From: Stichopus chloronotus
Taxonomy: Eukaryota; Echinodermata; Holothuroidea; Aspidochirotida; Stichopodidae
Assembly: GCA_021234535.1 (NCBI GenBank)
Contig: CM037839.1
Span: 10,231,419-10,295,418, forward strand
Length of the DNA stretch: 64,000 bases
Direction of reading: 5' to 3'
In this document: positions 10,686 to 47,365 of the stretch, one piece after another
Layout: every line of letters starts with the position of its first letter
Numbering within the stretch: position 1 is the stretch's first letter
Position numbers and translations under genes: made by a program
The notes under the pieces: generated by a model
What the model was told of the DNA's origin: nothing
Databases searched by the model: none
Seen by the model: the letters and a program-made list of their open reading frames with translations, nothing else

Positions 10686-10779
10686 ATGGTCCCATCAGAA
10701 ACAAACAACCTAACACGATTTCTTTTTCTGATGGTGATAACCCTCTCATCAATGGTGACACTAGTCGACAATGTGATAG
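10686..10779 (+). CDS. Receptor exon 1: signal peptide
   Basis: The ATG at 10686 opens a 31-codon reading frame ending at a GTGAGAG donor in phase 1. The peptide starts MVPSETNNLTR and continues with the hydrophobic core FLFLMVITLSSMVTLV, a typical secretory signal. The phase-1 end matches the phase-1 start of the Ig exon at 21223. The first intron would be about 10.4 kb and holds a LINE and a hAT element. An overlapping longer frame upstream (from 10477) has no feature supporting a start and runs through this exon in another frame. The link to the receptor rests on phase, strand and content, not on transcript data. Confidence 0.7.
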
Positions 10780-11629
10780 GTGAGAGTATTAGCTTATCAC
10801 ATTTTATATTTTAATTTTGTAATTTCCGGTCTTTTTTATGTATGAATGTTTCCGTTGTGAGTGCAACCCCTATACCACGCGGTTGAAATGGTTACACTGA
10901 ACTAACTGGCAGTAATAATTACGGTAGGTTGGCGAGTATAAAAGACTTACAACAGGTAAGAAAAAATAATTTTGCCCTATAACATAAATAACTTTAATTA
11001 AGGATACTGAGTTTACTGAACTCACGGGTCACGGGTTCATGGTAGAATGCTTATGGATGCCGGTTCAACGGTATCGTAAGAGTGGGTCGTGACAGTGTTG
11101 TACGTATTTCGTCACTTACCGTACTTGATTATCACACACTGAACGAAAACTTATATTTGGACACTAACTTTGCTATTCGGACATGACAAAGTTTCGACTC
11201 TAATGGACATGAATAAGTAATCCTACCGGTGAGGCTGATTCGAAGTAACGCTACAGGGAAAATAATCACGTGATCATGGGTCAGGGGTAGCATAACTTGC
11301 TGTGAAAAAGGACGAAGTCCATATCGACTTTTCCCCATAATCTTGTGGTGAAACATTGACGGAATAATTCTTTCGTATTATTCACACTTCGCGTAATACG
11401 CAGTATCATGAAGTCAGAACTTATTTGACTGCGACGAATTATTTGACGTTGACTACCCATGCTACTATGGCAGTGTTAATGTATTACGTATAGGTGACGA
11501 TGTATTTGACAGTAACAATTCATGTTGCCCGCCGTCGATAAAATTGGCAGTATTAATCCTCTTATGATGCATGTCAACCGATTTCACTGTACAATCATTT
11601 TGTGCATGAGTCTCAACATATATTGCGTC

Positions 11630-12738
11630 AGTTTGAGTTTGAGTTGAGTTTGAGTTTATTCATTCAGGCATGTATATATATACAAATGATTTACTTATAT
11701 AGGTTACTTGTTTCGTAATTATTAAGTACTATATACACATACATGAAAGGGACGTCATAAGCTCTGAGAGAGCTTGAGGTGACGTCCAACAGAAAATAAA
11801 CAAAGTTATACTAATTGGGAATGAAGATCAGGTGACTTAGGAACAACAAAACTATACAATAGTTATTTACAACAAAAATTGTAAATGAAATAAATAAATA
11901 AGAATAAGAAAAGAACCTTAGGAGTAGGAAGAAAAAAAGGGGGGGGGGAGGAGGGAGGTGGGAAGATGTAGGAAAAACAAAGGGAAAAGGGATGAAGAAG
12001 GTTTTCTACATCACTTGTAATAAATCAGTACTGCATATTATATTTATCCAAGATAAGACTCTTAATTTGTCTCTTAAAGCTATTTTTTGTAGGGCACATT
12101 CGAATATCCATAGGTAAAGAATTCCAAAGGTCGGGGCCAGTGTGTCTAATAGATCGATGGGCGAGAGCTGTTTTGGGGTATTCTAGATGAACATTTAAAG
12201 AAATTCGGGTTGGATAATTGTGGATAGCAGAGTTGATGCGAAGCATGTGTAACAGGTTGGCGGGCAGTTCTTGAGTATGGAATCTGTACATAAAAAGAGC
12301 AATTTGGAGGTAATGAATATCATGTATAGTAAGTGTGCGTATAATGGATTCGAATGTGCCCGATAATCTGAGTTCGTACAAATCCGGACAGCTTTTTTTC
12401 TGGAGAAGAAGCAAGGAGTTAATTTTAGATTTTTGACAAGCCCAAACAATATTACAGTATGAAATGAAGGGTAGTATAATCGAATTATAAACAGTAATCA
12501 AAGTTCGTCGAGGAATATAAGAACTTACTTTATACAATGCACCAACTCCACGTGATACAGACGTAATAACGTTAGCTATATGAGAATTCCAGTTCAATTC
12601 CTCATCGACAGTAATACCTAGGAATTTAGTACCTACTTTTTGATCAATTTGCATATTGTCAATAAAAATATTAAAGGAAGGGTTAGTGTTAATTGACCTT
12701 TGATTCTTGAAGAGCTTTTTTTTCTCCGGGGTTCCCAT
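11630..12738 (-). mobile_element. 5'-truncated Jockey/CR1-like LINE, RT C-terminal part
   Basis: The minus-strand frame 12738-12025 (237 residues) is the thumb and C-terminal region of a non-LTR reverse transcriptase. It has VGTKFLGITVDEELNWNSHI, then LITVYNSIILPFISYCNIVW, then LFMYRFHTQELP and TGPDLWNSLP before the stop. These are standard late-RT motifs of the Jockey/CR1 groups. The catalytic motifs are missing, so the copy is 5'-truncated. The 3' end carries repeats of AACTCAAACTC at 11630-11660, as LINEs of these groups often do. The middle of the frame is shifted (see finding). It lies antisense in the first receptor intron. Inactive. Confidence 0.85.
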
Positions 12739-13049
12739 GGCATGGTGCGCGTAAATGCGTGTAAGTGTTTCAATATGTAAATATGTTCATCTTTTGCTTG
12801 TGGTCATCTTCCAATTAAGTCAATCAATGGACATCAATGGCAAAAGTTGGATCAAACGAGGAAATGATTTATTTTTCTTTTTTTAAATGATCAAAGTAAA
12901 TTGATAACTGCTGGCAGCCTCAAGTTGACTTGCAGACTGACCACCCTGGTAGAAATATGATTAGATCCTCAAAGAAATGGAATCATCATAACACGTAAGA
13001 TATACCGTAAGTCTCAAAAACGCACGCTAAGTGACACCTTCGGGAAAGC

Positions 13050-13325
13050 CATCGCCGGCACAATTGTACGGCAAATAAGGCGTTTCAAATGCCCCAACAC
13101 GGAATACAAACAAAGCCGCTATAAATATAATCATTGTTAAACAAGTCAGTCTGGCCAGAAAACATTGCAAAAGCTCCTACTCTTCAAAACATATACGCAG
13201 AGGACGAGTTGCGAAAATGCATCATTTGAATTGTTGAAAGTTGGATTCAGCAAATTGTTCTTGAGCCACAAGTAATCGAAATTTTATCTGTGAGAAACTT
13301 GGTGAATTTTTATGTAATTTCTCCT
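13050..13325 (+). repeat. Dispersed repeat (GCATCATTTGAATT family), copy 2
   Basis: Contains AATGCATCATTTGAATTGTT, CAGCAAATTGTTCTTGAGC and TTTATCTGTGAGAAACTTGG. Shorter at the right end than copies 1 and 3. Confidence 0.6.
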
Positions 13326-13329
13326 CCCT

Positions 13330-15110
13330 CTGGATAGATTTAAAACCAAATTCTGCCTTAAAGAAACATAACTTGAGACTCGAGGCAGCTAAAATATCAA
13401 TAACCGCCATGTACCTATGTTCATACTTTTCTAGGAGTCAATTTTGTTTCTTGTCTGTTTCATTTATTTACATATGTCCGTGTTCACAATCTTTTAGGGC
13501 TATTTTGAAAAGCGGCGTTAAAGAAATGAAAGATGACTAAAGAATTTTATTTTACATCCTCCCTCGCGAGGATGTGCTTAAGTACCCCATTGTCAACCTT
13601 GCATTGCAGTAAATTGTTGTTTCTCAAGCGTAAGTAACTTGCATGGGTACACTCTGTTGGAATCGCTGATATCAATTTTCATGATAATCAACATCACACA
13701 TAAATCAAATTTTAAGGTGACATGCATTGTAAAATGTTAAACTGTTTATTATCTAGACAGAAAAACATTGGTAAAAGAACAATGGAGGATAAGAGCAAAA
13801 CAATAAGAACATAAGTTGTTTTGCTTTATATTCCCTAACTAAACATAATACATAAAAAAGACTGATGATTACCACGTAGAGAAAGTAGCAGTATTAGAAG
13901 GATATGCTATCTGTAATAGGGTAAACTGTTAGTCATAATTAAGTGAGGCGACTTGATATTATAGAAATATTAGCATTATTTTCATTACACATTTCATAGG
14001 CCTGTTACTCACATCAAATTTTCCCCATGTACAACGTAATTAAAGGCTATACATGTAACGTTAGAGATGTAAAATGTTACATAGTTCATCCTCTGGCTAT
14101 GAAAACAAAGACATAGTCCTGTCTACATAACTATGCCGGTTTAGGGCAAACAACTGTAAGAGCGTATGTTGTTTACGTTCCTTTCAACTGAACATAATAA
14201 AAAAAGATTATGATTATACCATGTGGATCAACTAGCACTATTGGGAGGAAAAGCCGACTGTAATAGTGCAACCCACTAGGCATGCACTACTCGACCAGCA
14301 CAATGATGACTTTATACAACCGTTTATGGTGTAAATATGAGGGCAAGTGGAATTATTGTAAACTTGAGCGAACGAGCACTTAAAATATCCTGTTCAAACT
14401 TGTCAGTTTTGAGTACCCGTCTTTAGGTCACGCCAAATGACCAAAAAAACTCCTAACTCATCCAGAAATCTGAAAATAAAATTGAACATGTCATAACAAA
14501 TATAGACTTATTGTTACAGATTGTAGCTGGAAAATTTCAATCATTTTTTTTTTTGTCATTCAATGATCTTACCAACTAACATAACAAACAAAAAACAAAG
14601 GATTTTAAGGAGCAAAATATGATGGATACCACAGAATAGTGGAACCAATGAACTGAGATGTTCGTATGCATTGCGCTTGCTGATCTTAGTTTACAATGAA
14701 AACAATGAACAAAGCTGTTTCGTGTCGTTGATTGATTGTACATACTCAAATGATTTTAGCACACCCGGTACACCAAAGCCACCGACAACGATTCTTTAAA
14801 ATTGTACTAATTTATCTCATTTACGCAGTGACACGACGGATAAATCTTTTTTTTTTCGGTATTGAACCTTTAGGAAAACTTTCCATCTTTGTAGAGTTAA
14901 AAAAGTTGGCAATTGAACATTTCTCAAAGTAATTATATATACTACAGCACTGCTTGGTTCCATCTTTCTCTTGAGTGGAGATTGAATGGTCCCATAAGAA
15001 AATGAACCGCCGACGCTATGTTAACGGACATAACTTCCCTTGGTGTGATTCACTCTCTCACCAAAAGACGACTGAATGCGCCCGGCGTTACGGGAAGCGG
15101 TTTTACTTTT
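13330..15110. other. Intron sequence without recognised features
   Basis: AT-rich, short chance frames only. Two blocks near 13730-13940 and 14060-14290 share words (TGTAAAATGTTA, AACATAATA, AAGACTGATGATTACCA / AAGATTATGATTATACCA), suggesting an old duplication of about 340 bp. Confidence 0.4.
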
Positions 15111-15114
15111 TATC

Positions 15115-15294
15115 CGATATTTGGTGATATCAGCGAATGAATTGGTGATATCAGGAAATCATTTGATGATATTAGCAAATATTTGCTGACATCATCAAAC
15201 AATTGCTGATATCACCAATTATTTGCTGACATCAGCAATTAATTGCTGATATCATTAATTTATTTGCTGATATCATCAAATGCGTTGCTGACCA
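15115..15294. repeat. Inverted short-word array (TTGCTGATATCA)
   Basis: About nine units of 19-24 bp. The first three read TTGGTGATATCAGCGAAT-like. The rest read the reverse complement, TTTGCTGATATCACCAAT-like. The flip is near 15180. Each unit is nearly palindromic around GATATC. Confidence 0.88.
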
Positions 15295-15462
15295 TACGGC
15301 GTACTCTTTGTGATCATAAGGTTGCATCTAAAATTATGGTTTGAAACGTTTTGAGAATGATGTAAAAAGTATGGAAATTTCCTGATGTAGAGTACCTGTA
15401 TAAGACCGCATTATATTGCACACGTAGGTATTTTAAATGAACACGTAATCATGTTAAGGCAG

Positions 15463-16565
15463 TGGCGTAGCTAGTAAGGGGTGGGGGCGGTCAAGGGGGC
15501 AAAGTGCCCCCACAGAAAGTTTGAGCACGCGATGACGAAGAGACGAGGGAGAGATGATAACTTGACGGAGTTGGGGAGAACTGGTAGATCTAAACTGAAG
15601 GGGGAGGGGCGCTGGGAAGTTGTCGGGCTTCACAAGTGTGATCTTTTAATGACGTTGAAAACTAAGACGAAACAGACAAACAAAATGAAACAATGTATTC
15701 ATGAAGGTGTGGTGAAATCGTTGATTCAAGGTTTCGGTTGGCCATAAAGGCGCCTGTTACTTATACGAATATGCGGCTAGAGGATCGAATCCGCAACAGG
15801 ACGGCATATTTATTTTACGCAGGGCACATTCAAGGCAATAAGCCTCCCCGAACTGTCGATGAAAACCAACGTCATGGACAATGCCCCCCTTTCCAACCCT
15901 AACGCTAAATTAAGATAACTAAATCCCCCAGAAAGTATTGTTTGTCAATGCCAACTAAAGCTGTTGCCAATACGAACCACTATTTTTTCATATTACTATT
16001 CAAAATTACGTCAATTCTAGTATTTAAAAATATACACGTCAATTCTACTAGTTAAAAGTACATTATTTTCATTTTGTTTTAATTTGGAAATGTTTCACCA
16101 CAGGTGCATGCAACAAACTAATGTTTCGCCCTGACCTCATCCCTCCCCCCCCCCCAAAAAAAAAATAAAATAAAATTTCGAGTCTGGTTTTCCGTCGCTT
16201 TGTTGCATTAGATAATGTTCAACCACCTACCCCAATTTTCATGTTTATTTTCAAGCTTAATATGGGTCATTATCAACCAGTGAAAAAGTGGGTCGAAAGG
16301 TATGTTCAGCACACCTTCCCCGTACTATTTGCCTCTCAACCTATCTGATATGTATTACCATTTTTCATACATTGATTTATATCTCTTTTGGCCTAATTGA
16401 CAAATTGCAGGTATGAGATCCCTATTTTAAGGCTCGGTACATGCAGCTCGGAACACTCTGGAAGTGTCGTTTCCGGCTATCTGGAGGGAGGGGGGTCTGA
16501 AAAGCCAAAAGTTTCTTGTACGCTCCGCGCCAACCGATGGTGGAGCTCCGCTTAGATAGTCCTGA
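15463..16565. other. Stretch with fragments of hAT-like non-autonomous elements
   Basis: CAGTGGCGTAGCTAG near 15467 followed by G- and C-runs looks like an element's left end; no matching right end was found. At 16509-16563 a segment with TTCTTGTACGCTCCGCGCCA and CTCCGCTTAGATAGT repeats the one at 5806-5862. No gene seen. Confidence 0.4.
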
Positions 16566-17024
16566 CGGCACTCAGCCCCGTCCAATACTGTTTAACCTTT
16601 AGGTTAATGGGTGCAGGTGTTATAGGAAGTCAATTTTTCACCATGGGTGAACAAACATAATCCTTTTTTAGTTAAGAGAGGGTGTCCCATTCCTTAGACC
16701 TCTCTTCATGCCTCCTAGGCCTATCTGTGGACAGACTGATTTGAATCCTGGCTAAAGTCTTGTTAGAAAACCCCCTCCCCTTAAACCCCTCAACCAGAAC
16801 AGAGGTAAAAACAGGGACGATGAGTCGATTTTGCCCCCTAACAAAAATAAAAATTCTGGCTAAGCCTCTGAGGGGAGCATAAATTAGCTTGCCAGCAAAA
16901 ACATATATGTAGACTGAACATTGAAGAGGGGGGAGGGGATGATTACATTGACCATCCCCTAGTCAAATATTGGAGGGGATATAATATACATAAAATATAT
17001 ATTGGAGGGGATATTCTTTGAAGG

Positions 17025-17867
17025 CAGGGGCCGCACCAAGGGGGCATGGGGGCAAATGCCCCCCAGTCAGAGCCTTCCCCCGGTTGCCCCCCCCCCCACT
17101 CAGCTCCTGAAGTATAGTGTCCTTTCAGGAGTTTTCAAGGCAAAGTAATACTCAAATAATTTTCCTCCCTGTTTGAATCATTCCCAAACTTTTCAAAGTA
17201 ATTAAAACCAGCCTGAGAGCTCTCTGTAAAACTGTGCAAGTGACATTCTTTAACTTCCTGTCACTGAAACTTTTCAATGCAGAGCAAGCTCTCAAGTCTC
17301 ATGGGCATTGGAGTGTGTAAGAGGTTATACCACCTGGTATGCTCGACATATAAACATGAAGTGTAACAGATACATATGTATATATCTATTCCCTATTAAT
17401 ATACTGTACATATTGCATTAACCTTTCTGTTCTAAGAAAAGTGCAAAAGTGTCAAGAGATTGCTAATAAGTAGCTTTTAAACATATTGTCGCTTTCCAAC
17501 TTCTCATGTTGTCAGCTAAGAAGAGTAATAGCCAAATAAGCCTAGCTTGCATTGAAATCATTTGGAATCTTTGCTTTGGATGATGCATTATGGAACAACA
17601 TACACCTATCCTGAGTCTTAATTTTTTACCAAGAGATTTGCTTAAACCTCAGAGCTTCCGGGGGCTTCGCCCCCTGGACACCCACCGGGGCTTTGCCCCT
17701 GGACCCCACCAGGGGTCCTAAGGCGGGCCCAAGGACCCCACCCTGTAAGTCTCGCGCTTCGCGCTGGATTTAGCGCTGCGCACGAAAAATTGTTTGCCCC
17801 CCAACATTTTCTTTTGCCCTCCATTTGCCCCCCCCCCCCCACCTTTAACATCCTGGTGCCGCCACTG
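17025..17867. mobile_element. Non-autonomous hAT element with 8-bp TSD
   Basis: 843 bp with imperfect terminal inverted repeats: CAGGGGCCGCACCA at the left and, on the other strand, CAGTGGCGGCACCA at the right. It is flanked by the exact 8-bp duplication TTTGAAGG (17017-17024 and 17868-17875). An 8-bp duplication plus CA-rich short TIRs is diagnostic of the hAT superfamily. The interior has poly-C/G runs near both ends and no transposase frame. Confidence 0.88.
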
Positions 17868-17875
17868 TTTGAAGG

Positions 17876-18995
17876 TACAGGGATAACAGCGCACCCTGTT
17901 TAAAGAAGCCAGCAGTAGCCAGCAGTATTCCCCAAATACTAAAGGTCAAATAAGTTCGTTTGGTCATCACCACAGGACTAGCCATATGGCAAACCGCTCT
18001 GTGAAAGTCTGCCGACGTATAATGACATCTGCAGACCATATGTAGGCCTACTTATATCATTCTATATCGAGATATGTAACCAGTTGTCATAAATTGCCTG
18101 CAAATTGTTGTGAAGATCGTTTCGAAAATTCACATATACTGAAGACCAATTAAAACTAGAAATGGATTTGCCTGCAATACGCAGAAATGTGGAGGGTAGA
18201 AGGCAAGCCCTTGTTGTTGGGAGTAAGCCAATCTTGGTGGATCTACCCCTCATAGGAGTTGCCTTTTTGGGGAAAGGAGTGCAGTGTTCCTGTTGCCCCC
18301 TCTCCCAATCCAATGTTTTGATATCACACTGGACGAAACAAAAATCCCATTGGAGATCTCTCATAATGTTACTATATATTTCTCAAGAAATTGGACTAAA
18401 TTAGAGTTATCTACTCTAGTTTCAGCTGTATATCTGTCACACCTGACTCTCTGTTTCACCACTGAAATGGAACATGAGAGAAGTAAAGCACAACTCGATC
18501 AATCAAGTGCAATGAAGCCATTCGCATTCAAGCAGTACATGATTATGTACAAGGACGCCACGTTGTACCCACTAAGAAGCACTGAAGCAGTGCATGATTC
18601 TGTATAAAGCCATATGACACTTTGGTGTTGCGCACCAATTTGGAAGCAACGATTGATACTCCAGGTTTACCACCTCACTGGGAAAAGGTCGAACGACATT
18701 TCATGGCGTTTGCTGGAAATTTATCCGCAGTTCTCTCTTATTACTTTTAACTCCCTTCTTGCAGTCGCGGCAATATACTTTTCCTCAGTGGATTTTGGTT
18801 TAAAGACGGCCATATAGCTCGCACTTACTGCAATTGTTGAAATTTCGAGCATGAATATTTGTATGCACTAAGTTACGTTACGCGAAGGATAGGCGTTTTT
18901 AGCCCTACAATGCTCAGCAAAAGAATTTGGCATTTGACCGATAGTGACAAGATTGTAGTGCGACGCACAACAATGATAAAATGTACAATTTAGTT
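17876..18995. other. Intron stretch with overlapping open frames, no call
   Basis: Around 18062-18610 open frames of about 100 codons exist on both strands (plus: TLDETKIPLEISHNVTIYF; minus: GRSTKIGLLPTTRACLLPS). No family, no start context and no convincing splice pair, so left unassigned. Confidence 0.3.
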
Positions 18996-19008
18996 TGCCA
19001 CCTTGCCA

Positions 19009-19057
19009 CCTATCTATCCATGCATCCATCCATCTATCCATCTATCTATCCGTCCAT
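19009..19057. repeat. ATCC/ATCT microsatellite
   Basis: Tetranucleotide run (ATCCATCCATCTATC type) bordering the 19.1-kb tandem array. Confidence 0.85.
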
Positions 19058-19059
19058 CA

Positions 19060-21222: not shown

Positions 21223-21456
21223 TGAAGACTGTCACACAGGGGGAAAATTTCTCGTTGTATTGTAGTCCTTCGTTCTGGAGTTTGACCAACCTCACATCAC
21301 AGTTACAATGGTTTAAGGATGGATACTTGGTGCCCAGCTATGACGGTATTGAAATATACAGCGTGAGAGACGCAGATTTTAAAGACAGTGGAATGTACTC
21401 TTGTCAAATGGAAGGAGTCCCCGACTACGGTCAACAGACAAAGGTTATCGTTGGTG
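21223..21456 (+). CDS. Receptor exon 2: Ig domain (D1)
   Basis: A 234-nt exon, phase 1 in and out, after a strong pyrimidine tract and TTTCAG and before GTAAGT. It encodes one complete Ig domain. The B-strand Cys is in NFSLYCSP, the C-strand Trp in LQWFKDG, and the F strand has the classic DSGMYSCQM. An N-glycosylation sequon is visible in the C-terminal part of FWSLTNLTS. In gp130-type receptors an N-terminal Ig domain precedes the cytokine-binding module and contacts ligand at site 3 (known). Position and phase here fit that plan. Confidence 0.88.
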
Positions 21457-22397: not shown

Positions 22398-22515
22398 AGG
22401 CACCCAGCAGACCACCGCAATCAGTTTGTCTTGACAGTCGGACACCGATGGTCACTTGCATGTTTTACACGGGTACCGATGGGGATGTAGAACTATGCTG
22501 GGAAATAGCTAACAC
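22398..22515 (+). CDS. Receptor exon 3: first half of cytokine-binding domain D2
   Basis: A 118-nt exon, phase 1 in and 2 out, between CCTTCAG and GTAAGT. It starts EAPSRPPQ, a Pro-rich linker, then SVCLDSRTPMVTCMFYTG. The spacing C-x9-C equals that of the first disulfide in gp130 D2. The usual Trp two residues after the second Cys is absent (CMFY). A third Cys follows in VELCWEI. The half-domain split at a phase-2 intron is the usual layout for D2 in class I receptors. Confidence 0.8.
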
Positions 22516-23994: not shown

Positions 23995-24215
23995 TTAAAG
24001 GCGGAATATGAGATGCATAAGCAATCCCCTAGTCACCTGCTTTCGTTCTTTGTCAGTGTTTTGAGGAAGAGAAAGTAGGGGAAAACAGATCACCTGTCAC
24101 AAAATTTCAAAAAGAAGAGAACTACGAACTCATCTTCAAGATATTTGAAAATGAAAATTGTCTCAGTCAACATTTTTGTTGGCCCTGCAAAATTCAGACT
24201 CTCCAAGAAAGCACT
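23995..24215 (+). mobile_element. AAAGCTGG-ended repeat, left-part copy
   Basis: Starts TTAAAGGCGGAATATGAG and shares the inner block (GATCACCTGTCACAAAATTT, GAAAATTGTCTCAGTC). The right end is missing. It lies in the D2 intron of the receptor. A long minus-strand open frame over 24090-24581 runs through it and is not considered a gene. Confidence 0.65.
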
Positions 24216-24687: not shown

Positions 24688-24836
24688 CAACAGATATGTT
24701 TGGTATAGTTCATGCAAAGATAACGTGCAAAATGACAGCTTTACGTTTATTTTGGAGGAGCCAGGACTGATCGTAACCACCACTGTATCGAATGAATTTG
24801 GCAACATGAGCAGATCAGATATACACAACCCTATCG
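24688..24836 (+). CDS. Receptor exon 4: second half of D2
   Basis: A 149-nt exon completing the split codon of exon 3 (phase 2 in, 1 out), from a CTTACAG acceptor to GTATGT. The translation begins NRYVWYSSCKDN, giving the fourth Cys of D2. It ends with an F-G strand pair like that of gp130: TTTVSNEFGNMSRSDIHNPI. The last residues lead into the D2-D3 linker. Confidence 0.8.
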
Positions 24837-25416: not shown

Positions 25417-25562
25417 TACAGCCCGATCCTCCGACAATTACGAGACTAATTTCAACCGGTATCGACCAATTCAACGCCAGCTTTGAAATTCCTACCTCTT
25501 GGGATGCTGAGGAGTGGTTGAACTATGAGGCAATTTACATTCAGAATGGTGTCTCAAATAAT
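25417..25562 (+). CDS. Receptor exon 5: first half of D3
   Basis: A 146-nt exon, phase 1 in and 0 out, ending at GTAAGT. It opens VQPDPPTITRLIS. This resembles the gp130 D2-D3 linker, which has the form V-x-P-x-PP before the first strand. The B and C strands follow (FNASFEIPTSW, LNYEAIYIQNG). The acceptor (AATAACCAG) has a weak pyrimidine tract but is the only in-phase choice seen. Confidence 0.8.
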
Positions 25563-26169: not shown

Positions 26170-26356
26170 TTATCTACGTCGTTCACCAGACGGACGAACG
26201 AAGAATCTTTCTCCTTTACGGTTGATAGGTCACCGTACTCACTTGTCTGTTTGCAAGTGAAGGTACAAAATGGAATTCTGGGTCCATTTTTGCAAGTGGA
26301 CTCCCTCCGTTGGAGTAACTTTTCAGAACCGATGTGTTCATACACTCCAATGGCTG
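26170..26356 (+). CDS. Receptor exon 6: second half of D3 with WSXWS-like box
   Basis: A 187-nt exon, phase 0 in and 1 out, from CTCAAATAG to GTGAGC. Strand E is FSFTVDRSP and strand F is YSLVCLQVKVQNG. The G-strand region holds LRWSNFSEP. The W-S-N-F-S at 26311-26325 (about residue 295) aligns in place with WSXWS, the hallmark of class I cytokine receptors; Phe replaces the second Trp. Such conservative variants occur in family members (known). A Cys-containing tail (MCSYTPMAG) leads to the next domain. Confidence 0.85.
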
Positions 26357-26658: not shown

Positions 26659-26747
26659 CACCCTCCAAAAGTCCTCAAATTGTGGAAGTTTTACTGAATC
26701 AAAGTCGAACAAATCCTCACCTAAGGGATGTCACACTTATTTGGATG
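26659..26747 (+). CDS. Receptor exon 7: start of FN3 domain D4
   Basis: An 89-nt exon, phase 1 in and 0 out, from ACTCTAAG to GTAAGT. It encodes APSKSPQIVEVLL and later DVTLIWM, the A and B strands of an FN3 domain with the B-strand Trp. It is followed by an intron of about 10.2 kb that carries an R2-like LINE, a solo LTR and a large palindrome. Confidence 0.75.
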
Positions 26748-27355: not shown

Positions 27356-27596
27356 GTTCTAACGAGGATTTTATGTGGTACTACATACAAGTCATGATGT
27401 ATGCATGCGTGTTTATGTAGGTATGTCGGAAGGTCGGTAGGTCTAGGTAGCCCGGCTGGGCGGGGAAGCAAATCGGTAGTTTCGTGGGTGGGTGGATGGA
27501 TGCATGCGTTCATGTGTATGTGCGCATGTGACCTGTATGAATTTATGTGTATCAAAATAGGTGTAACAGTGTATTTGTGAATGTAAAAAAATAATA

Positions 27597-29640
27597 ATGC
27601 CAAAATGGAAGACACCTAGACCGGACCAGGTACAAGGATACTGGCTCAAATACCTGACAAGCTTACATGATAGACTAGCAACACAACTTCAAAACATCCT
27701 CGAATACCCACAAAACATACCAACATGCTCACAACTGGGCGAACTGTTCTCATACAGAAGGACGCAACTACAGAACCATTACATGTGTACCGACAACATG
27801 GAAACTATTCTCAGGGATGCTTGCCGGCCATATTAACGAGCACCTGAACACACCAACTACTTGGGCAAGAACAGAAAGGATCACCACCGGGATCGATATA
27901 GGGGAAGGAAAGACCAACTTCTGATCAACGACAAGATTCTGACCTTGAACTCGAAGAACACACAGACTAACTTGGCAGTGGGGTGGATAGACTACAAATA
28001 AGCATAGGACTCCGTACACTCCTGGATACTCCACAGTATAGGGCAATGCACAAGATCGACCCGAAGATCATTACACTAGTACAAACATCAATGAATAACA
28101 GGAACACCAATCTCACATCAGGTGGAAAATAGCTAGCCAACATAAAGATCCGACGTGGAATATTTCAGGCGATTCACCCTCACCCCTACTGTTCTGAGTA
28201 GCTCTCAACCGTTTGAGCCACATCCTACGAACCACGAAACAAGGATACATACTACAAACAGGACACAAAATCAACCATCTACTGTGAATGGACGACTTGA
28301 AACTGTATGCCAAAAACGAGAACGACCTCACCGCCCTGATTGACGGAGACTGTCCGAATCTTCACCAATGGCATCTGCATGGAATTCGGACTCGACAAAT
28401 GCGCGAGACAAATCATACAACGCCGAAGAGTGACCAATCGCCTTGAGCTACCCAGCATTTGAAAGATCAGTAATGCTGACATCAATGAGGGATACTACCT
28501 TGGCATACTTCAGAACATGCAAAACAAAGAGAAAGAAGTAAAACACAAAACTACATTAACATACAGAAAGAGGTTGCGACAAATGCTGAAATCACGACTC
28601 AGTGGCAAAACTTGATAAAAGCAGTTAGCAACATACGCAATACCACTACCAGTAATCAAATACACCACATGCATAATTGACTGGAAGCAGGCAGAACAGG
28701 ACAACTGTACAGAATGATGAGCAAGACAATGAACATGTACAAAGGACGCCATTCTAGAGCTGAGATACATCGACTGCACCTGTCACGAAAGGATGGCGGA
28801 AGAGGTCTGAAGGGAATCTCGGTCACAGTAAAATTCCAATGTGCCAGACTGCAGCAGTTCATCACATCAGCGAAAGACACAGACCCACCAATTGAGGCAG
28901 TCTGGAAACACACAGCAATAACAAGGTACAAATCAAAGAAAAATGAAATGGCGGAATGGCGGACAGAGTACACCAGCAAATGGTCTAACAAACAGCTACA
29001 TGGACAATACAATCGACAAGTCCCGCCGACGGTGGAATCCACTGAAAACACATACAAGTGGCTGAAAGGGAACACGGGGTTGAAAAGTGAAACAGAGGCG
29101 CTAACAACAGCTGCGCAAGACCAAGTCTCAAACATAAAATGCCACATGACAAAGGTACTCTACACGATGAATGATCCCAAGTGTAATGTGCACGGAAAAA
29201 GATGAGACATTTGCCCATATAATCACAGCCTGCCCCAAGGTAGCCAGAAGCCTCTTTAAGCCCAGGGACAATGTAGCATCCGCAATACACTACCAAGTAT
29301 GTCAGCAGTACGGTATCCCAACAACAACGTAAACAAGGTTACACAAACCCAACCAACTGAAGAGAACAAGACGAAGATCCTCTGGGACTTCGAAATCAGG
29401 ACAAAGAAACACGGGAAGGACTGATGATTGATGTAGCAATACCCAACGACTCAAACATATTCAAGAAGACCAATGAAAAGGTAGACAAGTACCAAGACTT
29501 GAAACTAGGAATACAGAGATTGTAGAACATCAAAACAAGGGTAATCCCCGCAATCGGTGCACTGGCAGCAAACACCAAAAACCCAGACAGACACCCACAA
29601 CCCCATCCCTGATAAACGATCTCCCAGAGTAATGGTAGGA
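27597..29640 (+). pseudogene. Decayed R2-like LINE: RT plus restriction-like endonuclease
   Basis: Fragments on the plus strand in three frames, with many stops. In order: RT entry region (PDQVQGYWLKYLTSLHDRLA, 27622 on); motif A region (NLAVGWIDYK, near 27970); motif C as MDDLKLYAKNENDL at 28288-28329; connection region (HSRAEIHRLHLSRKDGGRGL, 28750 on); a Cys/His remnant (ETFAHIITACPK, about 29208); and an endonuclease remnant with ILWDFEIRTKKH, LMIDVAIPND and EKVDKYQDLK (29378-29510). This order is that of LINEs with a C-terminal PD-(D/E)XK endonuclease, as in R2. The 5' end seems truncated at about 27597 and the 3' end is unclear. Inactive, in the intron between receptor exons 7 and 8. Confidence 0.8.
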
Positions 29641-36994: not shown

Positions 36995-37115
36995 CCGCCT
37001 CCAGAGGAGTATCGGAATGGTGTAATCGACCACTACGAATTGTACTCAGTACTGGATAATGTCACCGTCGGCGCACTTAACTTATCTGGAAAGGTGACAA
37101 AAACCGTGGTGAAAG
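36995..37115 (+). CDS. Receptor exon 8: middle of FN3 domain D4
   Basis: A 121-nt exon, phase 0 in and 1 out, after TTTCCTTTCAG and before GTATTG. It reads PPPEEYRNGVIDHYELYSV. Joined to the preceding TLIWM this gives W-x-PP-x(5-6)-NG-x-I-x-x-Y-E. The same order occurs in gp130 D4, where the B-strand Trp is followed by PP, NG and Y-E-V. A sequon (DNVTVG) follows. The upstream open frame from 36821 has no support as coding. Confidence 0.78.
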
Positions 37116-37609: not shown

Positions 37610-37775
37610 CACTGTTATAAATCTAAATTGTAAAATGTAAATTTACAGAAAATAAAACAAAGAAATACAAAAGGAATACAGAAATGTTCTGATAATTAGT
37701 TTCAAAACAATTTCTGTAATTCTTATTTATTTCTTTGTTTTATTTTCTGTAAATTGACAGACATTTTTTACAGTG
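37610..37775. mobile_element. CACTG-ended MITE, copy A (overlaps receptor exon 9)
   Basis: A foldback element with long terminal inverted repeats: CACTGTTATAAA... through TTTACAGAAAATAAAAC, answered by TTTATTTTCTGTAAATTGAC ... TTTTACAGTG. Its right arm contains the proposed acceptor of exon 9. This copy has a small duplication near the left end. Confidence 0.8.
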
Positions 37776-38198: not shown

Positions 38199-38200
<2 letters not shown>

Positions 38201-38232
<32 letters not shown>

Positions 38233-38674: not shown

Positions 38675-38751
38675 TTGCCTTTACGAGTCAAATAAACGTA
38701 TCGATTGCTCCTGAATTCCCTATAGTGCTAACGTTACAGTGTCTGGGGCTG
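38675..38751 (+). CDS. Receptor candidate exon: A-B strands of a further FN3 domain
   Basis: A 77-nt candidate, phase 1 in and 0 out, from CCGAATTTCAG to GTAGGT. It reads AFTSQINVSIAPEFPIVLTL followed by QCLGL. Length, phases and the strand pattern (INVSI, then IVLTLQC) parallel exon 7, the first part of D4. Its phase-1 start conflicts with the phase-0 donors of exon 9, and its phase-0 end needs a 0-to-1 exon before 41056 that I could not find. Kept as a candidate. Confidence 0.4.
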
Positions 38752-41055
38752 GTAGGTACATACATGCAAGAGGAAAACTTTCGGCGACCTGACAAAGTTT
38801 GACTTGCATGGATTCCGTCCTCTCGGATAGTCTCCAAACATCGGCCCATCATACACAGTACTCCAACGTTTCTCAGAATAGCCCACTTGAAACTAAGATA
38901 ATTCTTTTTTTTTTCAAAATGAATTATCTTAGACTTGAAAAGTCGCCGGCTCCCTCTCTTATTCTGTGTACTTTACTAGGCTCTGACATAAGGCCCGGCT
39001 TTACTGGTCTCTTTTCAAGGAAAGCGACATTTTGAGGGTTTATTTCGGAATGCAGAATTGCCTGTTTATTTACCGTTTGACACATGTTTGCAGTTCTAAG
39101 ACGATTTGTGAACAAAGGATAAAACTGTGGTAAATGTTTGCTCTAGGAAAGCTGAACTTCCGCTTTGATTCCATTTAGAATTAAAGTCAGTTTGTATTTT
39201 GTGATAAAACACGTGATGACAAATGGAAGGAAACAAGAGAGAGAATTTTGTTAAGTTTCTAACTCCTTAAGGTTCATTTAAAAGTTCTAAAGAAAAGCAT
39301 TTGAAATGTGAATGGGCTATACCTACTATAGCTAGCCTGACCGAAAGAGTTAAGGGAAAGAGTAAATCATGGAGATGTAAAGGAAAGCAGAAACAAAGGC
39401 ATGTCCTGGGGTTAATTCAAGTCTAGGCTAACCATCAGCAGGAGAGAGTCTGCATACTTATAGGCGCTCATTACATATCTGTTTACGCTCACATATGTTT
39501 CTCACGGCAAACGCATCCATAATTTGTACACAAGAAACATGGTAGCGAAGGCTTTCATCATCAGCTTGATGGCAGTTACTCTGCTGTTGTGTGGTTTTTT
39601 TTCGTAAATGTTTGACAAAAGTTATCCTGTTTTAAAACCAAACAATACATGAATCGATTAAAACATCGGTTAGATATTTTCGCCCCTCATCAATGCAGAC
39701 TTATGTTATTATGGTCTTCTACTTACTCACTGGGTCGCCGTTGTTCGATCCACTGTGTGCAAACGGTCTCCAACGTCCTCTCCAGCACACTATACGAGTT
39801 TTCCAATCGTATGTTTATCCTCTCTTTGTCAACGACGTTGTTGGGCGCATTTTCCGACAAATAAGTAGACCATCACGATTCTTACCTCAGGCGTACACTC
39901 ACGTCTTTAAACCTTGCGTCCAACGTAGCTTTGACAGTTTCTGTGTCCCATTGACGAACATGCTTTACTATATCATTTTTAGCGAAGTTTCGAACCTCCC
40001 ATCAATTTGATGTCCCACAAAGTAAAGGGTTTTCATGTAAGGGGACGAGTGAGGGATTAGTTCGTCATTTACAAAATTCTTCCAAATTCTCGCGCGATTT
40101 TACCCATTTCACCCATTGTGACTATATGCTACTATAATGCCGACTATAATGCCGAATACAACCGATCAAAACCAATGCTACACAAAACGATAACGATATT
40201 GTAACATCTTTAAGACCCAGCTGTTCGCTTATAGCTTCAAAAAATAATGACCAAAAAAAAAACGCCATTCAGACGTGTTAAAACCTGTTGATTCAAGAAT
40301 GCATTGTGCAATTCATCAACATATACTCCCAGTGAATAAATAATTGGTACTGGAATGATGTTCAGAAAAAAAAGCGGGCTGAAAGGACGGTCCAGAAAAG
40401 AAAATTGGGGCTGAAAGGATTTCCAGAAAAATCGGAGCTGAAAGGATGTCCAGAAAATCGGGGCAGGGCCACCGGGAGGGGGGGGGGGCGTCCATAAAGT
40501 CTCTCTACTACTACCATCAAATGGATAATCACATCAGCACGTTTCACAATTAGGGATCAAAGAGATTTGAAACTTCTCTTCTAAGTGGTCAGACAATTCG
40601 GAAAGTCACACATGGTAGACGTACTTGGACACTCAATTGGGTTGAAAGCAATGGGCTACATTACCAATGGTGATTGTACTTCTCCCACAGTCACGCTTTG
40701 AATCAAGTGCACTTATGCAATGAAAACAGATGGAAAAAAATCGAAAAATTTTTGCTACTAAGTAACAAATTTAAGATCAGATTTTGATGTTCTGTCGAGA
40801 TTCTTATCATTGAATTTCGGCGGCTGCATGTATAATCAAATAGAAATAATTTGACTCAATAATGGCAAAGTACAAAGTAAGTGGTTCTCTCTAGAACATT
40901 TCGCTCATAGCCCGGTTGGGGATAATCGTCTTATATCAGAAAAAAAAATTAATCTATGCAGTTTAAAAGTAATAATTTGTCATTTCGAACCATTAATTCC
41001 AGTTTCAAACTATAGTCTGGTTATATTTGGTGTTTTTTTGTTTACATAATTCCAG
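38752..41055. other. Stretch that should hold a missing receptor exon
   Basis: One exon with phase 0 in and 1 out, coding the C to E strands of an FN3 domain, is expected here. Candidates near 39891 and 40553 fail on donor or phase (see rejected). Otherwise AT-rich, with a C/G-run near 40480. Confidence 0.4.
38889..38940. repeat. Short inverted repeat
   Basis: CTAAGATAATTC and GAATTATCTTAG separated by a T-run, with TTGAAA outside. A small hairpin between candidate receptor exons. Confidence 0.8.
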
Positions 41056-41163
41056 ATTTAGAGTCAAAGGAATTGTACGTTTTTCGTCTTTATGCCTGGA
41101 CTAAAGGAGGAAGGTCGCCTCCATTTGTTTACGTGCTACACCCAGCTGATGATTGGCAACCAA
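41056..41163 (+). CDS. Receptor exon: last strands of membrane-proximal FN3 domain
   Basis: A 108-nt exon, phase 1 in and out, from ATAATTCCAG to GTAAGT. It reads LESKELYVFRLYAWTKGGRS then PPFVYVLHPADDWQP. This is a classic FN3 F-G hairpin (L-x(4)-Y-x-F-R-x-x-A-x-T-x-G-G) and resembles the end of gp130 D6 just before the membrane. The earlier strands of this domain must lie upstream (the 38675 candidate plus a missing exon). Confidence 0.8.
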
Positions 41164-42935
41164 GTAAGTTCATATTATGATGCAGAGTGGCCAAGGTGCG
41201 AGAACGAAGGGACAGTCACCGCGAACATCTTTTTCTTTAAGGGCGGGGGGAGTTGAATTGTTTCAATGTTCTTATAACTAGTATTTCCTCTATTTTCAAG
41301 TTGTAGGAGTAAGATTTTTTTTTCTACAGGCTTCAGGCTAGCTTTGTGACAAATTTCTGTTTACGCCCATGAGGCGTCTGTGATTTGCTCCTAACTGTCA
41401 AACTATTGACCATGACGTCCGACTGTTACACTTATTAAAATATGTCCCATGTCATATTGTTGTGACAGAATTCGTGAACTAACACACAAAACGATAGAGT
41501 GATAAATACTCCAGACCAGTCTAGACCTCAACCCCATCCCACCCCCTCCTTCCTGCAATGAAAATCGAAATTGTGGCAGGGGGAGGGGACGTTCCAAGTC
41601 CTCTGAATGGTTTTCCTGTTTAGTCAATCTTTGTGAGACAGGCACCTAAATGTTGCCGATGTGGAAGGACGGTCTTTGGAGGAGGTTATAGACAGATGGA
41701 TGAAAAATACTCTAGGAATAAAAAGGTTGTTGACAAGCAAAGGGCTCTCCCAAGAAGACAAATTGTTCATAAAAGAATCTTCTATTTCTTGAGTAATTCC
41801 TGTATATTATTCCCGACGATGCCTACAGGCTCTTCGAACAGGAACAATAGAAGCCCCGAAATTTGAATGAAGGAGGAGAGAAGAGGGTGGGAGGTGCTTC
41901 GAGGGAGAGAGGCAGATGAAAGGTCAAATTAAAAAGTGAAAATTCTATATTGCATGAACAAATGGGGGACCCTTGGAGGTAAATGTATGGACGGAAGCTC
42001 CGAATGGTTGGAAGGACTAGGAATGAACCGATGGTCGGTTGACGGATGAGTTGGGTGAATGAGGAGGATAGAGAGGAAGTATGAGGGAGCCCGGGAGAAA
42101 GGGGAAGATGGTACTCATGAATGGACGAAAGGTCTGAGGGGTGAATAAATGGATGAACGGGTGGATGGATGGATGGATGGATGAGTGGATGGATTGGTTA
42201 ATGTTCTTTTCGGTGTCTAACGTTAAATTTTCTATTTAAAATTTGCTTCAAGTAAAAGGGACAATTATTCCAATATCACCATTTTGAGGCTAGTAAAGCC
42301 TTTAACAACAGGCAGGAAACAATTTTCCTTGGAAGTTCCTCTAAAAATCATACATCACGTTTTCCCTCAGTAGCATAAAAAGTACATTGATAATTGATAT
42401 ATACTGTAGTAAGAACACGTACATGTGTAGTAAGAACACGTACAAAACTGGAAAACAAACCTTTATTTGTCTTTTGGAAGACAAATTATTCAGTTTCAGA
42501 GACCTTTTTTTAGGTTTCTAAAGTGCAACCTTTCTTTGAGAGGCTTCCTTGATCTTTACAGAACTTAAAACTGACTTTCACACTCACGAGTGAATTTTAA
42601 GCAAACAATGTTTTCGTGTTTTACATCTATGGTTTTTTTTTCTTTATTACAGTTACATTTCCCAGTCAATTGTTTTCAATTTTAGATCAATAATTTACTA
42701 TTCTGCGTTAAGAGGCATATCATAGGAGTCCGGTATTGGGCTTTTACTTTTATCTGTTATTCCCGAATCAGTACAAAGAAATTATTCGCATTTTTTGTAC
42801 GATAAAGTTATCTATCGGTTTCTATACTTTTTTTAATGTCCTTGACTTTCACTTTTTTATCCGAAATTTCTAGTTTCTTAAACCTTTTTTGTATTTCTTC
42901 CCTTTTTGTCTTTTGTCTCGTTTCATTTTATTCAG
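41164..42935. other. Intron before the TM exon
   Basis: Purine-rich degenerate repeats at 41860-42200 around the GGAT microsatellite; no coding signal. Confidence 0.45.
42149..42196. repeat. GGAT microsatellite with degenerate flank
   Basis: GGATGGATGG run. The 150 bp before it have scattered GGATGAAC- and GGTTGGAA-like words of the same origin. Intronic. Confidence 0.85.
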
Positions 42936-43075
42936 ATGTCAACGCCTTGATGTGGATGGGAGTATTGATGTGTTCTTTATTTGTCTTGGCTGTTCTAGGA
43001 TGTGCTACATTCTTCTTAAAAGAGAAAATGTCATCTAGTTATCTTCCAGAGCCGTATTTTATCCCAGATGCAAAG
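42936..43075 (+). CDS. Receptor exon: transmembrane helix and box1-like segment
   Basis: A 140-nt exon, phase 1 in and 0 out, from TTATTCAG to GTATAT. After NVN it encodes a hydrophobic helix, ALMWMGVLMCSLFVLAVLGC, ending ATFFLKEK, with positive charge on the cytoplasmic side as expected for a type I protein. It continues SSSYLPEPYFIPDAK, a Pro-rich stretch about 10 residues inside the membrane where box1, the JAK-binding motif, sits in this family. The match to box1 is by position and Pro/aromatic content only. Confidence 0.85.
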
Positions 43076-44337
43076 GTATATACTTACTTGTTGGAATTGC
43101 CAGCTCATTTTCTGCTTTTGGTATTATGAAAGCTCAAAGTTTTTCTCTCTATTACATTAATATATCAAACATTGGGGAATATACAAGTAACTTCTTTCTC
43201 TTGGGTGACGGCATTTGTTTGTGATAAACTAATCATTACATCATCGCATATGAGCGCATGTACTCCATTTGGTTGACTCGAAGCAGAAGAGCGAAAGAAG
43301 GTTATGGATAAAGCAAAAAGCATGTGGTGCGTGTCTTGATCATGGTGTTTGAAATTAACATCATACTGAACTTTCATTTTGGTACGGGTTAGAACATCGT
43401 CGTGTCATTCTTCACGACAATTGGCAGATTCTTCGATCCCCACCCCTATCCCCCCCTTTCTCCCTCCCCGACCCCATCGCCCCTTCCCCGAATAGTGTAT
43501 TTAAAGTGATTGCGTGTGTACTGAAAAACCAAAAAGATAAGAGTGTGTCTGATCTTAACTTTTTCTTTATTTTTAAATGTACGCGCGAGGTTGTATATGA
43601 ACGGACTATGTCTTTCAATGAAGGAAAATGACAGTAACTACTTCGAAAAGCAACGGGATTGGCATAAAAACATTAAAAAACAGAAATCATATTTGAAAAT
43701 TATCGGTTCTTGCTATAAGCGCCTACATAATGAATATACAACAGTAGAGGTCTCACTAGTGTATCAAAAACATACTACTCAAGTCGTCGCTCCTTGGTAG
43801 GTATCGGGAATTGCAGTATTTGGTGAAAGGAAACACTGTATCTACAAATAACCTACGAACTGAACACAACCTTGCCCGCGGCGTCAGTGATCCTAAGTTG
43901 GTAACTGAATATTCAATACTAGTATGCTTTCCATTGGCTTGCTCAAAGAAACCCACCGTTGATTTGAATGAAAACTGTCAACCACTACATTGTCGTATTC
44001 TACACCTTTTGTCGTTTTGGTAGAAGAATTTGAAATCGTATGGCAAAAGTAACCAACTGAAACCTATTTATTTTCCCAGATTGTCTGAATTTTTCAATTA
44101 AAAGTCTTACCAAACTTTTGAAGATGAAAATCTCAATGTTTTTACTTTTTGCCTACGCACGTGACCACTTTAAACTGCTGCTGTTGTATCCATCAAACAG
44201 ACTATTTATAGCAGTGAAAATATTTCTCAAGAATTTGAAGACGGATGCTAAATGGGAGGGATGGGGGAGGGAGATATACAATTCTTTTCAAGCAATAGTA
44301 CTGGGTCTCGAAACCTGTTCATAGCTTTTTTTCTCAC

Positions 44338-44498
44338 AAAATCTCAAAGAGCGAGATGAGGGATAGCTCCAAAATTGAGAGTAAATGTTTCCTCCATAGG
44401 AGTAACAACGGCTCTTTCCGGAGAGTTATTCTTACTCCTTTAGAGTGAATATTCACTCTTAATTTTGGAGCCATCTCTATTCTGGCCCTTTGAGATTT
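44338..44498. mobile_element. Foldback element (hairpin MITE-like)
   Basis: 161 bp, ends AAATCTCAAAG and CTTTGAGATTT. The arms pair over most of their length (GCTCCAAAATTGAGAGTAAA against CACTCTTAATTTTGGAGC) with a loop near 44420. No target duplication resolved. Confidence 0.75.
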
Positions 44499-45852
44499 AG
44501 ACAACAGTAAATGAAAATAAGTCATATGAACGATGTAGCACGTAATTACTTATCAGTCCACTTATAGCGGTAAACCCTTCACACATTGGAGTCTTGTATT
44601 CGAATAGTTAGTAAATTGCTTACAGGTTTACATGCTACACGATGTTCAAAAGTCTACAATTAATATCAAAATAGGAACTACGGAGGGTTGTTAAAATACA
44701 AAATTGGTAAAAATTGAAAAAAAAAAAAAAAAAGACGAAAGAGGCAAGAGCAAGACCGATTCTTGTTTGATATTTCATGTATTATATTCCACAACCTAAT
44801 ATTGAGTAAATGCCGGCTAAAGTTAAAACTGGATGTCTGAGCCCCACTAAATTACTTACAACTGCCTTGCATGTTCATTATGGGAAGCATTTCGCAAATT
44901 TGACCTTTTTAGAAGACTTCAGAAAACCAAATAGTCACATGGTGGTGCAAATTAGTGCTAATTATTGCATTTCCATGTGGTTTGTACCCATGAGATTACG
45001 CACACATTATGCATGACGTCACTCACGTAACTGCACGTTTATTTGCATCTTTGTATTCTTCTTTAAGGTATCATGTTAAAGAGGGCAGGCTCGATTCGCC
45101 GGCATGATCACGACGTCACTGCGAGGTTTATCGGAAGGTTGCAGATGTTACTGTGTCACGCTTACCCGCATACACAGCTCAAAACGACTGTACTGTTGCT
45201 AACTTCTAGCAATTTTAATGTGTAAATAGCTGTTTTGCAAATCGTATGGAGCAATAATTCATATAGGCATTGCATAGAGACTATTTCCTTCTCGAACGGA
45301 AACATTCGACACAGCTTAAAAATTGTTTTCAAGAAAAAAAGGGAATATGCAACTAAAAGGACCTTGAATTTCGCATATGATCCTTAGGTTTGTAGATACA
45401 TTATTATTATTATTACTATTTTTATTGGAATTTGATGTTAAATTCTATAGCTTGGTGAACTGAAAGAGAACATGTGTTGTGTTTTGCCAGTGACAATGTA
45501 TGTTTTCTTTTCACCTTAGGATTTTCTTAGCAGTTTCTTTTCATTGCAGAAGCAATATTATATGCCTTTCAGGAACATATCAGGAAAGCTGCATATTTCG
45601 ATATAACAACTATTTCCTCTAGAAATGAAAAAAAAAAAAATAAGAAAATCAAAGAGAAAACAAAATCTTATTGTCAATGTGTACGTACATTGTCATATAT
45701 ATTTATCAGAAGTAAGGCTTTCACTGAAAAAAAAAATAGTGTTTTTCTTCTAAAAGCACCAAATCGATATTATGGGATGCAGTTGCAATTTAACAATATT
45801 CACTGTTATTATAGACACCATTTATTCCAGCATTGACCACAGCCTATACATG

Positions 45853-46198
45853 AAAGCTGGAGTATGAGTTGTACTGGTAGTCGCCTGGTCATCTACCTTT
45901 ATTCTTCGTCAGTTTTTTTCAGGGCAGGAAAGTGGAGGAAAAGGTCACCTGTCACAAAATCTGAAAGAGAACTATGCATTCATCTTCCAGATATTTTAAC
46001 ATGAAAATTGTCTCCACAGTCTTGTTGGACCCACAAAATCCAGGTCATCCGAGAAAACATAGCGGTTGATCACCGCTACTTGAAATCAAACTGACCAATT
46101 GGGACTGGATATGAATATTCATCTATGCCAAAATAGGGTTTAAACTATGTAACCTTGCAGTGGCTATGGCATAAATTTTCAACTCATATTCCAGCTTT
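45853..46198 (+). mobile_element. AAAGCTGG-ended MITE-like repeat, fullest copy
   Basis: About 346 bp with terminal inverted repeats AAAGCTGGAGTATGAGTTG and, at the right, CAACTCATATTCCAGCTTT. An inner conserved block includes GGTCACCTGTCACAAAATCT and GAAAATTGTCTCCACAGTC. No coding capacity. Target duplication not resolved. Confidence 0.75.
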
Positions 46199-46338
46199 AA
46201 TTATACTACTGCGTCTCACATATTAGACTATGGACTGAACATGTTTCTGTTGAATAAACAGTTGCTATGTACAAGGAAAAGGAATTGAGTTCATATACAG
46301 GAAGTCACGAAAACCTTAACAGTAACAGAAATTAACTA

Positions 46339-46488
46339 CACTGTTAAAAATGTAAATTACAGAAAATAAAATAAAGAAACACAAAAGGAATACAGAAATG
46401 TTCTGGTAATTAGTTTTCAGACAAATTCTGTAGTTCTTATTTATTTCTTTGTTTTATTTTCTGTAAATTGACAGACATTTTTACAGTG
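46339..46488. mobile_element. CACTG-ended MITE, copy B
   Basis: A 150-bp copy of the same element. Ends CACTGTTAAAAATG and CATTTTTACAGTG, arms with TTACAGAAAATAAAA. It ends 52 bp upstream of the open frame containing the terminal receptor exon. Confidence 0.85.
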
Positions 46489-46615
46489 TGTAGCCTGTGT
46501 TAATTCAGCTATCATCTACCATACACCCCCGCATAGCATAATGCTTGACGGTGTTAGCGTAAACATTAAAGTAATGATTCTCATTTTTTGTGTCGATTAT
46601 GAAATATATTTACAG

Positions 46616-47365
46616 ATGAATCAATACATGTCAAAGAAAAGAGCGCCGCCTTGTCAAAAGGAAATTTTTGATCAATTGAAATTGCCGCCTCTGTCACTCG
46701 ATCCGAGTATCACCCGAGGGTTAGGCGAAGTGTGCAGTACGCAAGGTATCTACTCTAACTGGAGCCATAGCTCCACAGACGTAGAAGACACTGATGTTAG
46801 CATGTTAAACGTTACTTGTAAGCTGGCCTCCCCAACTGTGGTAGATTGGTCCATGTTTTCTTCTACTCCCTCGGATCGCACTCTTATCAAGGCCCGGGCC
46901 ATCGACGACAGCGCTGACTGTGCACTTCCCATGGAAATGAAACCGATCGAAGACCTAGACGTCCAGAAGGAGTGTTACGTCACGGAACGTGATATCATGG
47001 AATATTCTCAAATTCAGAGTAAGGTGGCCGATAATCTCTCCACCGGGCATGAAGATTCCTCCCCCGTCTGCGTCACGTCGTCGATCGGCGAGTGTCGTTC
47101 AGATTCCACCGTTTCCGAAAAATGGTGTTCCAAATCTTCGGTAGGTTCGATGTATGGCCTCGCGAACGAGGGGTTTTTACTCTGGGGAAGCAAAACCATG
47201 TCGACACATACTAACATTGTGACGAATATAGAATATTACCTCAACCCTGATTCGAGCAGAAATGACATCACTGTGGGTAATGTTGTTTCTCATTATACCA
47301 ACTACGTACCATTCGAAGCGAGGGTACATGAGAAAATGTCCAAATTGAATGAAATTTCAGGGTAA
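46616..47365 (+). CDS. Receptor terminal exon: cytoplasmic tail
   Basis: A 750-nt exon, phase 0, after ATATTTACAG, ending in TAA (249 residues). The open frame extends 75 nt upstream of the acceptor, but that part is intronic. The tail is acidic and Ser/Thr-rich, as in cytokine receptor tails. Its tyrosines sit in QYMSK, IYSNW, CYVTE, EYSQI, MYGLA, EYYLNP, HYTNY and NYVPF. None has Gln at +3, so the YxxQ docking site used by gp130 for STAT3 is absent. Three fit Y-x-N, the Grb2 SH2 consensus (YSN, YLN, YTN). Codon use and GC content are clearly higher than in the flanking DNA, which supports real coding. One large exon for the whole tail resembles the vertebrate gene layout. Confidence 0.88.
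   Translation: MNQYMSKKRAPPCQKEIFDQLKLPPLSLDPSITRGLGEVCSTQGIYSNWSHSSTDVEDTDVSMLNVTCKLASPTVVDWSMFSSTPSDRTLIKARAIDDSADCALPMEMKPIEDLDVQKECYVTERDIMEYSQIQSKVADNLSTGHEDSSPVCVTSSIGECRSDSTVSEKWCSKSSVGSMYGLANEGFLLWGSKTMSTHTNIVTNIEYYLNPDSSRNDITVGNVVSHYTNYVPFEARVHEKMSKLNEISG

Follow-up and report, generated by a model that had tools for sequence, protein, structure and literature searches.

A predicted class I cytokine receptor gene with gp130-like features in the sea cucumber Stichopus chloronotus

The genome of the sea cucumber Stichopus chloronotus very probably encodes a single-pass class I cytokine receptor of the gp130/Domeless type. The gene lies on the plus strand of a 64,000-nucleotide stretch of contig CM037839.1 (C11:10231419-10295418, referred to as the window) and occupies window positions 10686-47365. 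Its 11 exons join into a frame of 711 codons with a single terminal stop, and all ten introns are GT-AG and in phase. The predicted protein consists of a signal peptide, an Ig domain, a two-part cytokine receptor homology domain (CHD, with half-domains D1 and D2), one FN3 domain, a transmembrane (TM) helix, a box1-like motif and a cytoplasmic tail of 249 amino acids (aa). An earlier note, based on the letters alone, had proposed in-phase exons for these parts other than the box1-like motif, including a C-x9-C pair and a WSNFS box, and everything that it named was found. The exons are listed below with their identities to P0001, a database protein colinear with exons 1-10.

Exon 1, 10686..10779, + strand: start codon and signal peptide; 27/31 residues identical to P0001
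Exon 2, 21223..21456, + strand: Ig domain; phase 1-1; Pfam Ig_2 26.6 bits; 66/78 identical to P0001
Exon 3, 22398..22515, + strand: CHD first half-domain a, with C120-x9-C130 and C143; phase 1-2; 36/39 identical to P0001
Exon 4, 24688..24836, + strand: CHD first half-domain b, with C158; phase 2-1; 47/50 identical to P0001
Exon 5, 25417..25562, + strand: CHD second half-domain a, with QPDPP start; phase 1-0; 44/49 identical to P0001
Exon 6, 26170..26356, + strand: CHD second half-domain b, with WSNFS; phase 0-1; 59/62 identical to P0001
Exon 7, 26659..26747, + strand: FN3 part a; phase 1-0; 26/30 identical to P0001
Exon 8, 36995..37115, + strand: FN3 part b; phase 0-1; Pfam fn3; 36/40 identical to P0001
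Exon 9, 41056..41163, + strand: FN3 part c; phase 1-1; 32/36 identical to P0001
Exon 10, 42936..43075, + strand: TM helix and box1-like YLPEPYFIP; phase 1-0; 42/47 identical to P0001
Exon 11, 46616..47365, + strand: 249-aa cytoplasmic tail with box2-like KEIFDQLKL and 9 tyrosines; the stop codon ends at 47365

The Ig domain carries the cysteines C45 and C92 and reaches 26.6 bits with Pfam Ig_2, narrowly below the cut-off of 27, and 19.3 bits with Ig_3 (cut-off 30). In the CHD, which is spread over four exons with intron phases 1-2-1-0-1 and a following intron of phase 0, the first Cys pair (C120-x9-C130) is present. Between C143 and C158 there are 14 residues, with C143 just 10 residues past F132, and no further Cys occurs between C158 and position 274. 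The WSNFS motif (residues 295-299) closes the second half-domain and keeps four of the five letters of WSXWS, a motif that PMC1963337 terms slightly variable. The FN3 domain that follows is encoded by exons 7-9 and gives one Pfam fn3 match (residues 333-402, 27.0 bits, cut-off 25). The hydropathy maximum of the TM helix begins at residue 425 with YLPEPYFIP just behind it, and the first 417 residues contain 11 N-glycosylation sequons, including one in the signal peptide and one in WSNFS. No second receptor copy was found within the window, where tblastn matched the 11 exons and three short stretches at E 5 or worse.

In a set of 5.8 billion proteins, two matches had an E no higher than 1, P0001 and P0002. 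P0001 (466 aa, 89% identical, longest contig 1589 bases) runs through exons 1-10 without insertions or deletions at the predicted exon joins and without an extra domain, and its identity over the ten exons is lowest in the Ig domain and highest in the last part of the CHD (exon 6). It behaves like a spliced transcript, we infer, because a contig of 1589 bases has room for its roughly 1400-base frame only if introns are absent, exons 1-10 spanning 32 kb in the window. P0001 ends in PDAKVSF, with VSF standing where exon 10 ends; since Val-Ser is the reading of the unspliced GTAAGT donor, the contig probably runs into intron 10. With exon 11 alone, the only match at E up to 1 was P0007 (248 aa), which is 84-85% identical over its full length, starts at the same Met as the first residue of exon 11 and has the same C-terminal residues. 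P0002 is BSL78_13264 of Apostichopus japonicus, annotated as a 'hypothetical protein' or 'Ig-like domain-containing' protein, and is 52% identical overall and 63% in the CHD. As the sole named relative is thus a sea cucumber, the host was rightly taken in the earlier note for an echinoderm-like deuterostome. Beyond P0001 and P0002, the profile built from the first alignment retrieved only four L1 proteins from fish (E 0.35-0.95). It is easy to overlook such receptors, as the Apostichopus relative bears an uninformative name and the CHD matches no Pfam model.

The assignment to the class I family is supported by profile searches against PDB. A three-sequence profile of the whole protein found gp130 first (E 2.5e-8), followed by the Fc-epsilon receptor through the Ig domain. 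With a profile of CHD plus FN3, gp130 structures took the top seven of 30 matches (E 3.7e-7 to 1e-5), and RPTP-delta came next at 1.1e-4. When the three paralogs described below were added, the resulting five-sequence profile gave, among the best 60 of its 179 PDB matches, gp130 (8d82, E 5.9e-18, best stretch from the second CHD half into FN3), LIFR (5.4e-11) and IL-12p40 (about 4e-6), and the stretches of these three extend into the CHD. Aligned with gp130, the sequence keeps the same register from the WS motif to the PSK.P with which the following FN3 domain begins. These comparisons support gp130 as the nearest relative of the predicted CHD and FN3 among solved structures. They also support the class I identity that had been proposed for the gene.

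Exon models suggest that the same genome (718,950,351 bases in 267 contigs) has at least three further receptors of this kind. P0001 matched the genome at 18 places, ten of them in the window gene and eight elsewhere, among the latter two weak TM/box1 matches on C7 (E 0.068 and 0.097) and one CHD exon on C11 (E 0.025). Three paralog models were built.

C7A, C7:4862789-4881538, + strand: 518 aa, with a putative signal-peptide exon
C7B, C7:4893574-4911586, + strand: model without 5' end
C11B, C11:29280205-29265643, - strand: model without 5' end

Some 12 kb separates C7A from C7B, a pair that resembles a tandem duplication. On C20, dozens of dense FN3 matches extend over about 54 kb (C20:12756581-12810577, + strand), perhaps one very large FN3 protein gene.

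In each of the three models the exons from CHD to tail share a continuous open frame that follows the phase series of the window gene, an agreement that is partly by construction because the exon finder imposed those phases on most exons. Placed without an imposed phase were the three tail exons, FN3b of C7A, and D1a and D2b of C11B. In seven control stretches, the exon finder scored below D2a, FN3b, FN3c and TM of all three paralogs. D2b exceeded the controls in C11B and not in the C7 pair, and FN3a did so in C7A, by a single point in C7B, and tied with the best control in C11B. D1a and D1b were clear of the controls in no paralog (best margin one point, for D1a of C7B), so that the four D1 cysteines found in the three models as in the window gene sit in exons that are not above background and whose placement rests on phase, position and C-x9-C. 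No Ig exon was found in the paralogs (best scores 31-37 against 0-35 in the controls), nor was a 5' end located for C7B or C11B. All three models have WS-type motifs (WSNYS, FSPYS and YSPYS), an LPEP segment behind the TM helix and, after the TM exon, one tail exon whose first residue is Met and which contains [IV]FDxL; with the window gene, LPEP and [IV]FDxL are present in four of four genes. The strongest evidence that exon 11 would belong to the gene comes from the paralogs, the predicted join of exon 11 to exon 10 being based on the splice sites and on these models.

Several observations weigh against a class I receptor and have to be set beside this evidence. Pfam recognised no family in the CHD of any of three sequences and matched no cytokine-receptor model, and the CHD alone found only IL-12p40 in PDB, at E 0.045. 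F132 replaces the canonical W of C-x(9-10)-C-x-W, the second Cys pair is out of the published spacing (x(26-32) after the W, then x(10-15)), and none of the nine tail tyrosines stands in a YxxQ motif. Among the matches found, no contig joins exon 10 to exon 11, and the phase agreement of the paralogs counts for less by the extent to which it was imposed. Finally, a search with the single sequence placed RPTP-delta first (E 6.6e-4) and gp130 next (8.1e-4), and RPTP-F (5.2e-20) and RPTP-delta (2.4e-19) outrank gp130 in the five-sequence profile. These rankings, and the Fc receptors that are the best profile matches of the Ig domain and give the cytokine receptor no support there, would fit an adhesion or guidance receptor of Ig and FN3 domains (IgCAM, Robo or RPTP type) in which WSNFS arose by chance. 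The RPTP-delta stretches of the single-sequence search, however, fall in the FN3 part (residues 325-409 and 322-400), as do the best RPTP-F and RPTP-delta stretches in the five-sequence profile, including all four printed RPTP-F stretches (profile positions 221-326), whereas gp130, LIFR and IL-12p40 reach into the CHD. Moreover, Pfam finds one fn3 match and no phosphatase family in the window protein, and the paralog models again show LPEP and a motif of WS type. An adhesion receptor with a chance WSNFS is accordingly very unlikely and was rejected, on the confinement of the RPTP matches to FN3 and the recurrence of the motifs.

Class II receptors have a D200 without WSXWS, and the exact phase series of class I genes is probably 1-2-1-0-1-0 as well. 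A class II receptor of the interferon/IL-10 type could be read from the intron phases, as PMC8863823 gives 1-2-1-0-1-0 for class II genes. C-x9-C, WSNFS, the Ig domain and the extra FN3 domain are class I features, though, and no class II receptor appears in any of the 30 PDB matches of CHD plus FN3 or in the best 60 of 179 for the five-sequence profile, which makes a class II assignment extremely improbable. The phases of the window CHD are compatible with the split CHD that, as PMC1963337 describes it, is common to class I genes, the arrangement of the Ciona gp130-like gene being largely conserved in vertebrates and the fly CHD lying on one exon. A further possibility is compatible with a class I receptor and concerns its use: the main product might stop after box1 with exon 11 seldom used, giving a decoy or regulatory receptor. 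The end of P0001 would suit this, if its V-S is indeed read from the unspliced donor, and Drosophila offers an analogy in the short non-signalling receptor described in PMC2914635. The tail frame is nevertheless conserved at 84-85% down to the same C-terminal residues in P0007, and a tail exon follows the TM exon in three of three paralog models, so that a mainly tail-less product appears unlikely.

Parts of both JAK and STAT, through which such receptors would signal, were found in the genome. A 264-aa frame on C14 (L032:1006-1797, - strand; C14:25518536) matches FERM_F1 with 38.5 bits (cut-off 26.1) and FERM_F2 with 28.7 bits (cut-off 26), and the seven PDB entries that it matched with an E no higher than 0.001 are JAK1, JAK2, TYK2 and one 'Tyrosine-protein kinase' entry. 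The JAK FERM search had matches in none of 14 control genomes. STAT_alpha was found in two exons (L037 and L038; C7:17319065-17322774, - strand) with 72.1 and 40.8 bits (cut-off 27.5), and two of the 14 controls matched at E up to 10, none above the cut-off. A genome search for STAT_bind (PF02864) gave nothing, and the 14 controls were equally silent.

Beyond the presence of these parts, we infer each step of how they might act. A secreted cytokine would bind the elbow between the CHD half-domains, perhaps with the Ig domain as well, and the receptor would dimerise with itself or with a paralog. A JAK could be held at the box1-like YLPEPYFIP and the box2-like KEIFDQLKL and would phosphorylate tail tyrosines, which might recruit STAT and SH2 adaptors. 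YxxQ is the STAT3 motif of the gp130 subfamily, and YxN is the motif of Grb2-type adaptors. As YxxQ is absent from the tail, and from all 32 tyrosines of the four tails of window gene and paralogs, the docking code cannot be that of gp130. The YxN found at three of the nine tail tyrosines suggests a Grb2-type adaptor.

The window also contains repeats. A palindromic repeat resembling a miniature inverted-repeat transposable element has three copies in the window (37632-37775, 46338-46492 and 48458-48618), and one of these lies some 125 bases before the start of exon 11. A dispersed repeat, 72-78% alike and partly inverted, occurs at 23997-24213, 45853-46126 and 52603-52875. Frames resembling parts of retroelements lie at 12025-12786 (- strand) and 27567-29205 (+ strand), and the three frames tested there had no Pfam match.

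gp130 has three membrane-proximal FN3 domains. The window protein resembles gp130/IL6ST in its Ig domain, its predicted CHD with C-x9-C and WS-type motif, FN3, TM helix and box1-like region (gp130 topology as in PMC1963337), and differs in its single membrane-proximal FN3, its displaced second Cys pair and its lack of YxxQ. The earlier description as gp130-like is thus upheld by the top PDB match of CHD plus FN3, while 'gp130-shaped' is not, for these three differences. Perhaps sea cucumbers possess their own small, partly tandem-expanded family of at least four genes of gp130 type, with a stalk shortened to one FN3, a rearranged CHD disulfide and a docking code that lacks YxxQ, in which the Ig domain was retained or acquired by one member and tail-less isoforms arising by retention of intron 10 regulate signalling. 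We put this forward tentatively and consider it somewhat doubtful as a whole; if true, JAK/STAT cytokine receptors would have radiated independently in a phylum formerly described as being without them. According to PMC3296744, the purple sea urchin has no apparent cytokine receptor signalling.

The statement that few class I receptors are described from invertebrates proved too strong. A Ciona gp130-like receptor of the same general topology was reported in 2007 (PMC1963337), and sea urchin and acorn worm IL6R-like proteins were placed with Ciona and vertebrate IL6R in 2026 (PMC13203501). The Ciona protein is likewise a class I receptor of an invertebrate deuterostome, with the order Ig-CHD-FBN-TM-box1 and an intron-split CHD; its similarity to human gp130 is given as 28.0 (Table 1, PMC1963337), and its comparison with the window protein is by description only. 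The sea urchin and acorn worm proteins are, like the window protein, from non-chordate deuterostomes; PMC13203501 states that IL6R and gp130 'normally' have three to four FN3 domains, in contrast to the one found here, and its main text does not mention sea cucumber, Apostichopus or Holothur. Among the papers listed in searches of an open-access library, which lacks most subscription papers, none was seen to describe a class I receptor from a holothurian. A starfish IL-6-like molecule appears in a 1996 title cited in PMC9465101. The Apostichopus japonicus protein BSL78_13264 is ortholog-like, but its model diverges from the window protein inside FN3. Domeless of the fly is also an invertebrate class I receptor with JAK/STAT signalling, its CHD being encoded by a single exon (PMC1963337) as opposed to four in the window gene. 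To the class I receptors in print from Ciona, sea urchin and acorn worm the window gene very probably adds a further member. Echinoderms are known for regeneration, and the presence of a receptor family and of JAK and STAT exons in a single genome of this group makes it possible to test how old IL-6-type signalling is.

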